From Bacillus sp. FJAT-27916 (GTDB lineage Bacteria; Bacillota; Bacilli; Bacillales; Pradoshiaceae), in the NCBI RefSeq assembly GCF_001183965.1, contig NZ_LFZV01000001.1, positions 1,487,112-1,551,111 of the forward strand: a stretch of DNA of 64,000 bases, read 5' to 3'. Within the stretch, counting starts at the first letter, position 1. Every line of letters starts with the position of its first letter. The notes beneath the pieces were generated by a model, which ran no database searches, had not been told where the DNA came from, and saw only the letters and a list, made by a program, of their open reading frames with translations. Below are positions 3-60,278 of this stretch, piece after piece. The translations under genes and the position numbers were made by a program.

Positions 3-3000
3 AAAAGACCTTTGACAGGCAAAGGCTTGGCAGGAGTGGAATTCGGTGTTTACACTAAATCTGGTGATTTAGTTCAGAAAGTTGAAACTGGTAATGGTGG
101 AACAGTGACATTGAGCGGCTTGGCCTACGGTGAGTATTATGCTCAAGAGACACAAGGATTGGCTGGCTATAAAACAGATGACACGAAACACGACTTCACG
201 ATTGCGTCTGGAGAAGGAAACGCAGAAGTCACTCTTCAAATCAAAAATAAGGGTGTCGGAAGCGTAACAATCAAAAAGACCGATGAATTAACAGGAGCAA
301 CTCTAAAAGGCGTTGTTTTTGAAATTAAACAAGGAGACAAATTAATTGCAGAGTTAACCACAGATAAAGATGGTGCTGCATCCTTGGGTGGATTAGCTTA
401 TGGAACATATTCACTTACTGAAAAATCAACAATAGATGGTTATCAACTAAATGTGGATCCAATAATATTTATAATTGACTCGAATAATACCAGTGAGATT
501 ATTAAAGTTGATAACATTGGTACAGGACAAGTTATTGTAACAAAAGTTGATTCAGTAACTGGAGATAAGCTTAAAGGTGTCACTTTTGCCATTTATAAAG
601 GTGAAACAAAACTAGATGAGATTGCCACAAATAGTGAAGGCCAATTAATCTTCTCTGGTTTAGCCTATGGTGATTATGTGATTAAGGAAGTAAAGACAAT
701 CCCAGGTTATGAACTCGATGATACTGAAATACCGGTAACAATTGATAAAGACAATCAACTTATTAGCAAAGTGATTGGAAATACTGGAGTAGGATCAGCA
801 TCAATCCTAAAAATTGATGAAATTACTGAAGAACCGTTAGACGGTGTTATCTTTGATCTTATGAAAGGAGATAAGGTAATTCAAACTGTAGAAACTAAGG
901 ACGGTCTTGCGGTATTTGTTGGTTTGGCTCCAGGTTCATACAAAATTGTAGAAAAAAGCACAATTGATGGTTATAAACTTGATCAAACGCCAATTAGCTT
1001 CACGATTGGTACAGAGGAAGGTCAAACAAGCTTTGCTCAAACATTTACAAACACGGGTAAAGGAACCATTGACATCACGAAAGTGGATGCGTTGACTGGC
1101 CAAGCGTTGGAAGGCGTAGAATTTGGCGTCTACCAAGGTGATAAATTGATCACCTCTGTGAAAACAGACAAAGAAGGTAAAGCAACCTTCACTGGTCTTG
1201 CTTATGGCAAGTACGAGTTGAAAGAGATCGCAGCGCCAGAAGGCTATAAGGTGGAAAAAACACCAATTGAGGCGACTGTCGACTCTGAAAATGAAGGTCA
1301 TACCTTCAAAATTGCGAACACAGGTAAGGGATCCATCGACATCGAGGAAGTGGATGCGTTGACTGGCCAAGCGATGGAAGGCGTAGAATTTGGCGTCTAC
1401 CAAGGTGATAAATTGATCACCTCTGTGAAAACAGACAAAGAAGGTAAAGCAACTTTCACGGGTCTTGCTTATGGCAAGTACGAGTTGATAGAGATCGCAG
1501 CGCCAGAAGGCTACAAAGTAGAAGGAACCCCAATCAAGGTAACGATTAATGCGGATCATGAAAGCCGTGATTACACAATCAAGAATACTGGTAAGGGATC
1601 CAGCGACATCGAGAAAGTGGATGCGATGACTGGCCAAGCGTTGGAAGGCGTACAATTTGGCGACTACCAAGGAGATAAATTGATGACCTCTGGGAAAACA
1701 GACAAAGAAGGTAAAGCAACTTTCACGGGTCTTGCTTATGGCAAGTACGAGTTGATAGAGATCGCAGCGCCAGAAGGCTACAAAGTAGAAGGAACCCCAA
1801 TCAAGGTAACGATTAATGCGGATCATGAAAGCCGTGATTACACAATCAAGAATACTGGTAAGGGATCCAGCGACATCGAGAAAGTGGATGCGATGACTGG
1901 CCAAGCGTTGGAAGGCGTACAATTTGGCGACTACCAAGGAGATAAATTGATGACCTCTGGGAAAACAGACAAAGAAGGTAAAGCAACTTTCACGGGTCTT
2001 GCTTATGGCAAGTACGAGTTGATAGAGATCGCAGCGCCAGAAGGCTACAAAGTAGAAGGAACCCCAATCAAGGTAACGATTAATGCGGATCATGAAAGCC
2101 GTGATTACACAATCAAGAATACTGGTAAGGGATCCAGCGACATCGAGAAAGTGGATGCGATGACTGGCCAAGCGTTGGAAGGCGTACAATTTGGCGACTA
2201 CCAAGGAGATAAATTGATGACCTCTGGGAAAACAGACAAAGAAGGTAAAGCAACTTTCACGGGTCTTGCTTATGGCAAGTACGAGTTGATAGAGATCGCA
2301 GCGCCAGAAGGCTACAAAGTAGAAGGAACCCCAATCAAGGTAACGATTAATGCGGATCATGAAAGCCGTGATTACACAATCAAGAATACTGGTAAGGGAT
2401 CCAGCGACATCGAGAAAGTGGATGCGATGACTGGCCAAGCGTTGGAAGGCGTACAATTTGGCGACTACCAAGGAGATAAATTGATGACCTCTGGGAAAAC
2501 AGACAAAGAAGGTAAAGCAACTTTCACGGGTCTTGCTTATGGCAAGTACGAGTTGATAGAGATCGCAGCGCCAGAAGGCTACAAAGTAGAAGGAACCCCA
2601 ATCAAGGTAACGATTAATGCGGATCATGAAAGCCGTGATTACACAATCAAGAATACTGGTAAGGGATCCAGCGACATCGAGAAAGTGGATGCGATGACTG
2701 GCCAAGCGTTGGAAGGCGTACAATTTGGCGACTACCAAGGAGATAAATTGATGACCTCTGGGAAAACAGACAAAGAAGGTAAAGCAACTTTCACGGGTCT
2801 TGCTTATGGCAAGTACGAGTTGATAGAGATCGCAGCGCCAGAAGGCTACAAAGTAGAAGGAACCCCAATCAAGGTAACGATTAATGCGGATCATGAAAGC
2901 CGTGATTACACAATCAAGAATACTGGTAAGGGATCCAGCGACATCGAGAAAGTGGATGCGATGACTGGCCAAGCGTTGGAAGGCGTACAATTTGGCGACT

Positions 3001-23951: not shown

Positions 23952-24150
23952 TTCGGCCATAAGTCCTGACTATCGCCCTTACCATGGGAGTTTCGCCCAT
24001 AAACTGAACTCTTTCGCCCTTAAACGAGTGGAAATCGCCCTTAAACCAAGAAAACGGGGAAATCCTCATTAAAAAAGAAGGCTGTTTCATGCTGGAATAA
24101 CAGAAATAGACAAGCTAAAGTATTTTTTAAGGAAATCGAACTTTTCAAGG
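23952..24150 (+). repeat. Periodic TCGCCC(A/T)TAA array, copy A, with conserved 3' tail
   Basis: Core words start at 23953 (TCGGCCATAA), 23973 (TCGCCCTTAC), 23993 (TCGCCCATAA), 24014 (TCGCCCTTAA) and 24035 (TCGCCCTTAA), spaced 20, 20, 21 and 21 bases. The final unit runs into a tail (AAACCAAGAAA, GGGGAAATCCTC, AATAACAGAAATAGACAA) that is closely matched by the reverse-strand copy at 34.48-34.62 kb. The rest of the 23,738-24,278 gap holds no gene I can support. Confidence 0.75.
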
Positions 24151-24220
24151 TATTTCTCTGCAAAAATACCCTTAATTACGCTGTTTTGATTTTGGGGGAA
24201 TCACGAGGAGTCAATAGATA

Positions 24221-24278: not shown

Positions 24279-25235
24279 TCAGCTGACAGATGATGTTTCA
24301 AGCTTAGCTAGGCGTTCCTTTACTTCCTCATCCGTTAATCCATGCTCGACAATATAGCGGTTGCGTGGATGTGTGCGGCATTCGTGGCTGCAGCTGCGCA
24401 TATATTTATGCTCATTCTCTTCACTGCAGAGGATTTGGTCATTGCACTCAGGGTTGGCGCAATTCACGTAGCGTTCGCAAGGTTCTCCTGTGAAGAAGTC
24501 ACGGCCTACGACGACATGCTCGACTTGGTTGATTGGCACGGCAATCCGTTCGTCGAAGACATACATTTGTCCGTCCCATAGCTGGCCTTTTACCTCTGGG
24601 TCCTTCCCGTAAGTGGCGATGCCTCCATGAAGCTGGCCGACATCCTCGAAGCCTTCACGCACGAGCCAGCCGGAGAATTTCTCACAGCGGATTCCGCCTG
24701 TGCAGTAGGTCAGGATTTTCTTGCCTTCAAACATGTCTTTGTTATCACGCACCCATTGCGGAAGCTCACGGAAATTGCGGATATCCGGTTTGATGGAGCC
24801 GCGGAAATGGCCAAGCTCATATTCATAATCATTCCGTGCATCCAGGACAATTGTGTTCTCATCCTGCAAGCCTTCAAAGAATTCCTTCGGGCTTAAATAT
24901 CGTCCAGTCAATTCATTCGGATTGATGTCATCCTCTAAGCTTAAATTGACAAGCTCCGGACGCGGGCGCACGTGCATTTTCTTAAATGCGTGTCCGTCTG
25001 CTTCATCGATCTTAAAGACGATATCCTTGAAGCGCGGGTCGTTTTGCATCTTCTCCATATAGGCCTGTGTCTGCTCGTAATCCCCGGACACGGTACCGTT
25101 TATGCCTTCATTGGCGACGAGGATTCGGCCCTTTAGGCCAATCTCCTTACAAAAGGCCAAATGCTCCGCTGCAAATTCTACCGGCTCCTCAATGGGAGTG
25201 TAGTAATAATACAGCAATACTCTGTACTTACTCAT
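24279..25235 (-). CDS. trhO: tRNA uridine(34) hydroxylase TrhO (rhodanese family)
   Basis: This 318-residue cytosolic enzyme of the YceA/YbfQ type performs O2-dependent 5-hydroxylation of U34 in tRNAs. Visible parts are the N-terminal ferredoxin-like domain ([19 protein letters not shown]), a rhodanese domain with the catalytic loop [17 protein letters not shown], and a C-terminal Cys/His cluster ([18 protein letters not shown] and [12 protein letters not shown]) that probably binds zinc. Length is normal. The minus-strand ATG at 25235 is the only good start. Monocistronic. Confidence 0.93.
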
Positions 25236-34350: not shown

Positions 34351-34479
34351 GGCGGGGGGCAGAAGGCCATAGTTGGTTTTCTGTCTTTTTCTTGTTTTTT
34401 GGCAAGTCATTATTAGATTACGAGCTAGATGTCTAATTGTTAGGCAGGGACTCCGCTTAATCTGACAGAAAATCACCTA

Positions 34480-34622
34480 AAAAGGACAGATTATTCTTCA
34501 AAAAATCGATTAATTTGTCTATTTCTGTTATTTCAGCATAGAACTGTCTTCTATTTGGAGGAGGATTTCCCGAGTTTCTTGGTTTAAGGGCGAAGTCATC
34601 CCATTTAAGGGCGAAAGGGTGA
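34480..34622 (-). repeat. Periodic TCGCCCTTAA repeat, copy B, with conserved 3' tail (reverse orientation)
   Basis: On the minus strand two TTCGCCCTTAAA words lie 21 bases apart (ending at 34614 and 34593). They are followed by AAACCAAGAAA, GGGAAATCCTCC and AATAACAGAAATAGACAA, each also present in the same order and spacing in copy A at 24.0-24.1 kb. The rest of the 34,351-34,790 gap shows a weak GNAT terminator near 34360 and no gene I accept. Confidence 0.75.
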
Positions 34623-59969: not shown

Positions 59970-60115
59970 AATCGCTCATACGTTAAAATTTTCGCCCATA
60001 TAGAGAAAGAACCGCCCATACCGCAGAAATTCCGCCCATAAGCTATTTCTTTCGCCAATAAATTTTGCCGTTCGCCCTTAAACCGAGAATTCGCAATAAA
60101 TTCGCTCAAAGATGA
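59970..60115 (+). repeat. Periodic TCGCCC(A/T)TAA array, copy C
   Basis: Words start at 59972 (TCGCTCATA), 59992 (TCGCCCATA), 60012 (CCGCCCATA), 60032 (CCGCCCATA), 60052 (TCGCCAATA), 60072 (TCGCCCTTA), 60091 (TCGCAATAA) and 60102 (TCGCTCAAA). The first six are exactly 20 bases apart. The downstream tail differs from copies A and B. The 59,908-60,278 gap holds no other gene that I can support. Confidence 0.8.
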
Positions 60116-60278
60116 GAGCTCCTCCACCCTTCAAGAGTCAAAACAAACAAGCTGAGCGTGGTTTTAGTCGAAGTTTTTGCTCAAAAACCTTTCTGCACGC
60201 CTCCTTTTCATGACAATGTCATTTTCCCCATCCGCACATATACTGTCAATGACTGATTGTGGATTGAAGGTGAAAAAG

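Follow-up and report, generated by a model that had tools for sequence, protein, structure and literature searches.

Array A lies at positions 23953 to 24044 on the plus strand of the window, by which we mean the whole stretch of 64,000 nucleotides analyzed here. It consists of five words, TCGGCCATAA (23953-23962), TCGCCCTTAC (23973-23982), TCGCCCATAA (23993-24002), TCGCCCTTAA (24014-24023), and again TCGCCCTTAA (24035-24044), at steps of 20, 20, 21, and 21 bp. The number of words and their steps are those given by the first-pass annotation and were confirmed in the sequence. The array had been placed in a gap of about 540 bp between two transporter genes and trhO. The length of the gap and the right neighbor were correct, trhO (24279 to 25235, minus strand; NF001133) having its 3′ end towards the array, while the left neighbor, read there as a transporter, matched no family.

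The same words had been noted in two other gaps of the window, and both copies are real. Array B (34584 to 34614, minus strand) has two exact words, at 34584 and 34605, with a step of 21 bp, and array C (59972 to 60081, plus strand) has six words with five steps, all of 20 bp. Single words were mildly enriched in the window (17 versus 8.4 expected), and pairs were far above chance. No cas genes were found among the annotated genes flanking the window copies, and no Rfam match was obtained between 18 and 64 kb of the window.

Array A is followed by a 3′ module (24084 to 24213, plus strand), in which CAGAAATAGACAAGCT, 67 bp past the start of the last word, precedes an imperfect inverted repeat and then TTACGCTGTTTTGATTTT. 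The register of this module is common to 20 array copies. The module of array B (34415 to 34544, minus strand) has the register of that of array A, and array C retains a degenerate module core, CAAAACAAACAAGCT (60139 to 60153, plus strand), 67 bp past its last word.

The family was explored across the 4.15-Mb genome of Bacillus sp. FJAT-27916, from which the window comes. The pattern TCGCCCWTAA-N(8..14)-TCGCCCWTAA gave 34 exact pairs, every one with a gap of 10 or 11, and the reversed pattern gave none. A relaxed pattern gave 71 word pairs versus 0 for its reverse, and chaining with a position matrix gave 38 chains at about 36 places, with 2 to 9 units apiece. A genome scan for gap-confined arrays with 20- to 21-bp steps, as put forward in the first-pass annotation, therefore finds many of them. 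Ninety-one of the steps are of 20 bp and 46 are of 21 bp, and their order is polar: steps of 20 bp come first and steps of 21 bp follow, with 20 transitions from 20 to 21 bp and two in the opposite sense. The units are graded as well, those on the 5′ side being degenerate and often ending in TAC and those on the 3′ side being near-perfect copies of TCGCCC[AT]TAAAC. Core word positions carry approximately 1.6 to 2.0 bits, and the identity of the spacers is about that expected by chance, at 0.26 for spacers of one array and 0.28 for those of different arrays. The combination of conserved words and chance-level spacers indicates that the units are not recent duplicates and that the words are specifically preserved.

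In most arrays of this genome, a conserved module, CAAAATAGACAAGCT ... TTACGCTGTTTTGATTTT, follows at 67 bp from the first base of the last word. Array and 3′ module, at this fixed distance, thus usually form one composite element. The module resembles an imperfect inverted repeat, yet no covariation or compensatory changes were found between copies. RNA structure was rejected as an explanation of it, given that RNAalifold returned 0 pairs and that swapping arms between copies gave folds of about equal quality. Three conserved modules were distinguished, M1 (TTTGTCGAA), M2 (AACGTGTAAC...), and M3 (CAAAATAGACAAGCT). The TTTGTCG of M1 lies 19 bp ahead of the first word at four Rossellomorea-type loci (L078, L079, L080, and L032) and at 59 in two more, and M2 (AACGTGTAACAAAAATAAAAACACGTACCGTAAAA) is the in-register end module of some word families. 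M1 was considered as a universal array end and rejected, since it is present in just 4 of the 29 arrays of G365, a genome described below; such modules are a property of particular word families.

Several observations concern the surroundings of individual copies. One unrelated sequence (AGTCAAGTCCTCACTTTTGTGTAAATTACT...), probably an insertion sequence, splits two array elements on contig C1 of the FJAT-27916 genome (L010/L147 at 367 kb and L011/L148 at 383 kb). Four arrays (L157, L162, L164, and L166) have similar downstream flanks. L157/L026 and L164/L030 lead into an apparent 5S rRNA gene, so some arrays adjoin rRNA operons.

The arrays of the FJAT-27916 genome are all intergenic, with two overlapping weak short ORF calls only. 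Read in the orientation of the array, 17 gaps are convergent, 17 are same-direction, 1 is divergent, and 3 are unassigned on one side. Divergent gaps are not rare there, with 25 counted in these stretches, and the shortage of arrays in them is significant (Fisher P about 0.001). The bias is similar in the sampled part of G365, for which genes were called with simple ORF models: arrays occupy 13 of 26 convergent, 15 of 94 same-direction, and 0 of 38 divergent gaps, and all are intergenic. Many arrays start 10 to 100 bp past a stop codon, ahead of the terminator. They were considered as substitutes for terminators, and this was rejected because terminators are equally common with and without arrays. 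In same-direction gaps, the words run in either direction with respect to the upstream gene, which favors a role at the level of DNA. On the scale of the FJAT-27916 chromosome, 27 of the 36 places fall in the origin-proximal half (P = 0.004, post hoc) and 25 of the 36 are on the plus strand (P = 0.03, post hoc). There is no co-orientation with replication, the plus strand prevailing on both replichores. An 807-kb stretch of the left replichore (C1, 2.46 to 3.26 Mb) is free of arrays (permutation P = 0.017).

In the sister species G001, the flanks of array A are 78 to 84% identical, and the syntenic gap holds a decayed array (TTCGCTCATAA, TTCGCTCTTAA, TTCGGCCATAT, TTCGTCCTTAA). Five other syntenic gaps of G001 have no array, and word matches elsewhere in its genome are not above the control level. 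A survey of 397 genomes from 135 genera of the order found pairs of TTATGNNCGA at 20 to 21 bp in 31 of the genomes and in 17 of the genera. The central dinucleotide of this type of word differs between arrays and is mostly uniform within one. Exact TCGCCCWTAA pairs are also present in Halobacillus, [Bacillus] enclensis, Rossellomorea, Planococcus, and Lysinibacillus, among others, and some arrays repeat a 20-bp unit in tandem without any change. Two arrays combine different words: L079 (G070, C2, 761 kb) is a long array with a block of TCGCACATAA followed by one of TCGAGCATAA and a 41-bp higher-order repeat, and in L083 blocks of TTCGGCCA and TTCAACCA words are mixed at approximately 20 to 21 bp, an apparent word switch within the array. 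An origin from phages was rejected: the 40 matches in viral contigs are all single pairs attributable to chance in coding sequence, and no real longer array was among them.

The period was also searched for independently of any given word, by requiring three 9-mers with at most one mismatch. The samples of G365, G345, and G001 used in this analysis cover about one-tenth of each genome. G365 does not have the TCGCCCWTAA word, and 29 arrays were found in 400 kb of it, with a word or family of words particular to each array (GTGGACAGTAAA, TTCCGTGAT, TAACGTGAA, AATCTGTCC, TTTATAGGCC, ATCACATAA, and others). Its counts by period were 29 at 20, 21 at 21, 9 at 19, 6 at 39 (two units), and 0 or 1 at the other periods tested. 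Four further arrays, of the TTTATTATCGA type, were found in 40 kb of [Bacillus] enclensis. At period 20, none were detected in nine other 40-kb samples, in 150 kb of Escherichia coli, or in 416 kb of G001. The phenomenon is wider than one word: the period is shared by relatives whose words are different, and this holds even within a single gap.

This is apparent from seven array gaps of G365 that were traced through its congeners (genus g46). Gap 1 holds TAATCTGTCCAATCT in G365, G263, G284, and G141, TACTGTCCACTTT in G325, G241, and G345, and TTAACGTGGGATT in G192. Gap 3 holds TTCACGTTA in G365 and G263, CAGGTGGAA at 21 bp in G284, G241, and G141, and TCCGGCGAGTTTT in G345; in G325, the array is down to one unit and the flanks are kept. 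Gap a has TTTATAGGC in five species and TTTTGAGCGAA in G192, gap e has TCGGACAAAT in G365 and TTGGACAGAT in G345, and gap c has TTTCCGTGAT in G365, GTTGATATC in G263, and no array in the other species. Among the species read, gaps b and d and gap 2 of L248 have an array in G365 only, and in gap b the other congeners have the terminator only. Where orthologous arrays could be aligned, words differed at 33 of 533 sites (6.2%) and spacers at 60 of 370 (16.2%; P = 2e-6), a rate of change that is 2.6 times slower in the words.

A literature search for the array words gave nothing relevant, and known repeat kinds were compared by their architecture. CRISPR arrays have repeats of approximately 23 to 47 bp and unique spacers of similar length, in contrast with words of approximately 10 to 12 bp, spacers of 9 to 11 bp, and, in some arrays, identical spacers. 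REP/BIME and bcr-type repeats are palindromic or stem-loop sequences, dispersed at the 3′ ends of genes, for which a role in chromosome topology has been proposed. The arrays resemble REP/BIME in dispersal and location but consist of asymmetric direct repeats. The closest described kind is the STAR element of Staphylococcus, with a 14-bp GC-rich word, T(G/A/T)TGTTG(G/T)GGCCC(C/A), spacers of at least 40 bp, and repeats of about 50 bp (PMC3532100). Both are intergenic direct repeats of Bacillales with a conserved word and locus-specific spacers, both expand and contract, and both vary among species in number and location (PMC3532100). The arrays differ in having 10- to 12-bp words, TCGCCCWTAA and others, in place of the STAR 14-mer, and 9- to 11-bp spacers with a strict 20- to 21-bp period (PMC3532100). 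They also differ in their many words, the replacement of words at one locus, the ordered 20-to-21 steps, and the location mainly at gene 3′ ends. The TAACTGA repeats of Beggiatoaceae and Cyanobacteria, a heptamer with many sets per genome located mostly just upstream of start codons, are likewise short intergenic direct repeats (PMC4679880), whereas the arrays have a two-turn phase and are almost never in divergent promoter gaps. Neither a two-turn period nor word turnover appears in the excerpted descriptions of STAR (PMC3532100) or TAACTGA (PMC4679880). The arrays belong with the dispersed intergenic direct repeats, among which they could form a distinct class.

The reading that we tentatively favor, with somewhat less than even confidence, is that the arrays are cis-acting, head-to-tail sites for a putative protein on one face of the helix, which would punctuate the chromosome in 3′-end and convergent gaps. 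Cooperative head-to-tail protein binding fits the strict spacing of two turns, the conservation of asymmetric words beside random spacers, and the mixed orientation and placement in 3′ gaps. An array would offer 2 to 10 putative sites of approximately 10 to 12 bp each, and their distance of two helical turns may allow cooperative binding of a protein to a single face of the DNA. Location in 3′-end and convergent gaps would suit a topological, nucleoid-organizing, or anchoring role and not promoters. The first-pass annotation had likewise offered, beside a phased structure, a row of bound protein dimers on one face of the helix, and a row of proteins is still the best reading of the putative sites. 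The probable origin of an array is tandem duplication of a 20- to 21-bp unit, since perfect young arrays exist; the spacers would then drift while selection holds the words, and arrays may collapse and be reborn with a new word. Several points weigh against the protein-array reading: the many words per genome would call for either a large number of readers or a single, very permissive one, the sister G001 lives with almost no arrays, tolerated junk would also avoid promoters and genes, and some arrays travel as copies, as with the shared spacers of L244 and L235.

It is possible, though doubtful, that the selected trait is the two-turn period and the self-similarity of the array and not a fixed sequence, with words that belong to a single array, gap, or species and are replaced in concert. 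Such replacement would mean that the reader coevolves rapidly with the word or reads the repetition itself.

A somewhat unlikely alternative is that the words are transposase sites of MITE-like elements or solo ends, with M1, M2, and M3 as terminal sequences. The ends of Tn7/Tn402-type transposons contain several TnsB/TniA sites, head-to-tail at approximately 20 to 22 bp, in short arrays beside a terminal sequence, and the arrays resemble them in the scale of their head-to-tail sites and in the end sequence that adjoins them. The fixed register of end modules in some word families, the patchy distribution among species, the array of gap b in one congener with the terminator alone in others, and the dispersed double-array copies L244 and L235, with common spacers and inverted related words, are in line with such an origin. 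However, words differ between arrays and switch inside one gap, spacers of different arrays in the window genome show no relationship, and viral contigs hold nothing past chance coding pairs. Comparison of the filled and empty versions of L153, gap b, and gap d, whose flanks have diverged, revealed neither a clean target-site duplication nor terminal inverted repeats. Moreover, PF09299, the C-terminal domain of Mu/TnsB/TniA, is absent from 10 of 11 genomes (among them that of FJAT-27916, G365, G263, G345, G192, G070, G141, and G066), including all array-rich ones searched, and was found once, in G113 only, which makes a TnsB/MuA-type transposase unlikely.

Neutral minisatellites, that is, functionless tandem duplications of about two turns that decay where 3′ gaps tolerate them, are improbable. 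Perfect 20-bp tandem arrays, variable unit numbers, the collapse to a single unit between kept flanks, and confinement to gaps, where junk is tolerated, are what they would produce, but they account poorly for a period limited to 20 to 21 bp, for strongly conserved word positions beside chance-level spacers, for a 2.6-fold slower evolution of words than of spacers, and for the dominance of a single word over a whole genome. RNA-level elements of 3′ untranslated regions, acting in mRNA stability, termination, or RNA-protein binding, suit the position of many arrays between stop codon and terminator but are very improbable given the mixed orientation relative to the upstream gene, the module free of compensatory base pairs, the equal terminator frequency with and without arrays, and the lack of an Rfam match in the searched part of the window (18 to 64 kb).

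If the arrays are rows of putative protein-binding sites, they would represent an undescribed layer of chromosome organization in Bacillales. Arrays are dense in some genomes (29 per 400 kb sampled in G365) and near-absent in sisters, so that their role is testable across close species. The replacement of words in arrays that keep their period and place would, if true, be an unusual case of rapid turnover of DNA recognition in bacteria.

Two separate dispersed repeats were seen in genus g46. One, of 124 bp (L244, 2563 to 2686), lies beside the double-array element and has dozens of copies in these genomes, and the other, of approximately 200 bp (L248, 573 to 777), has many copies per genome.
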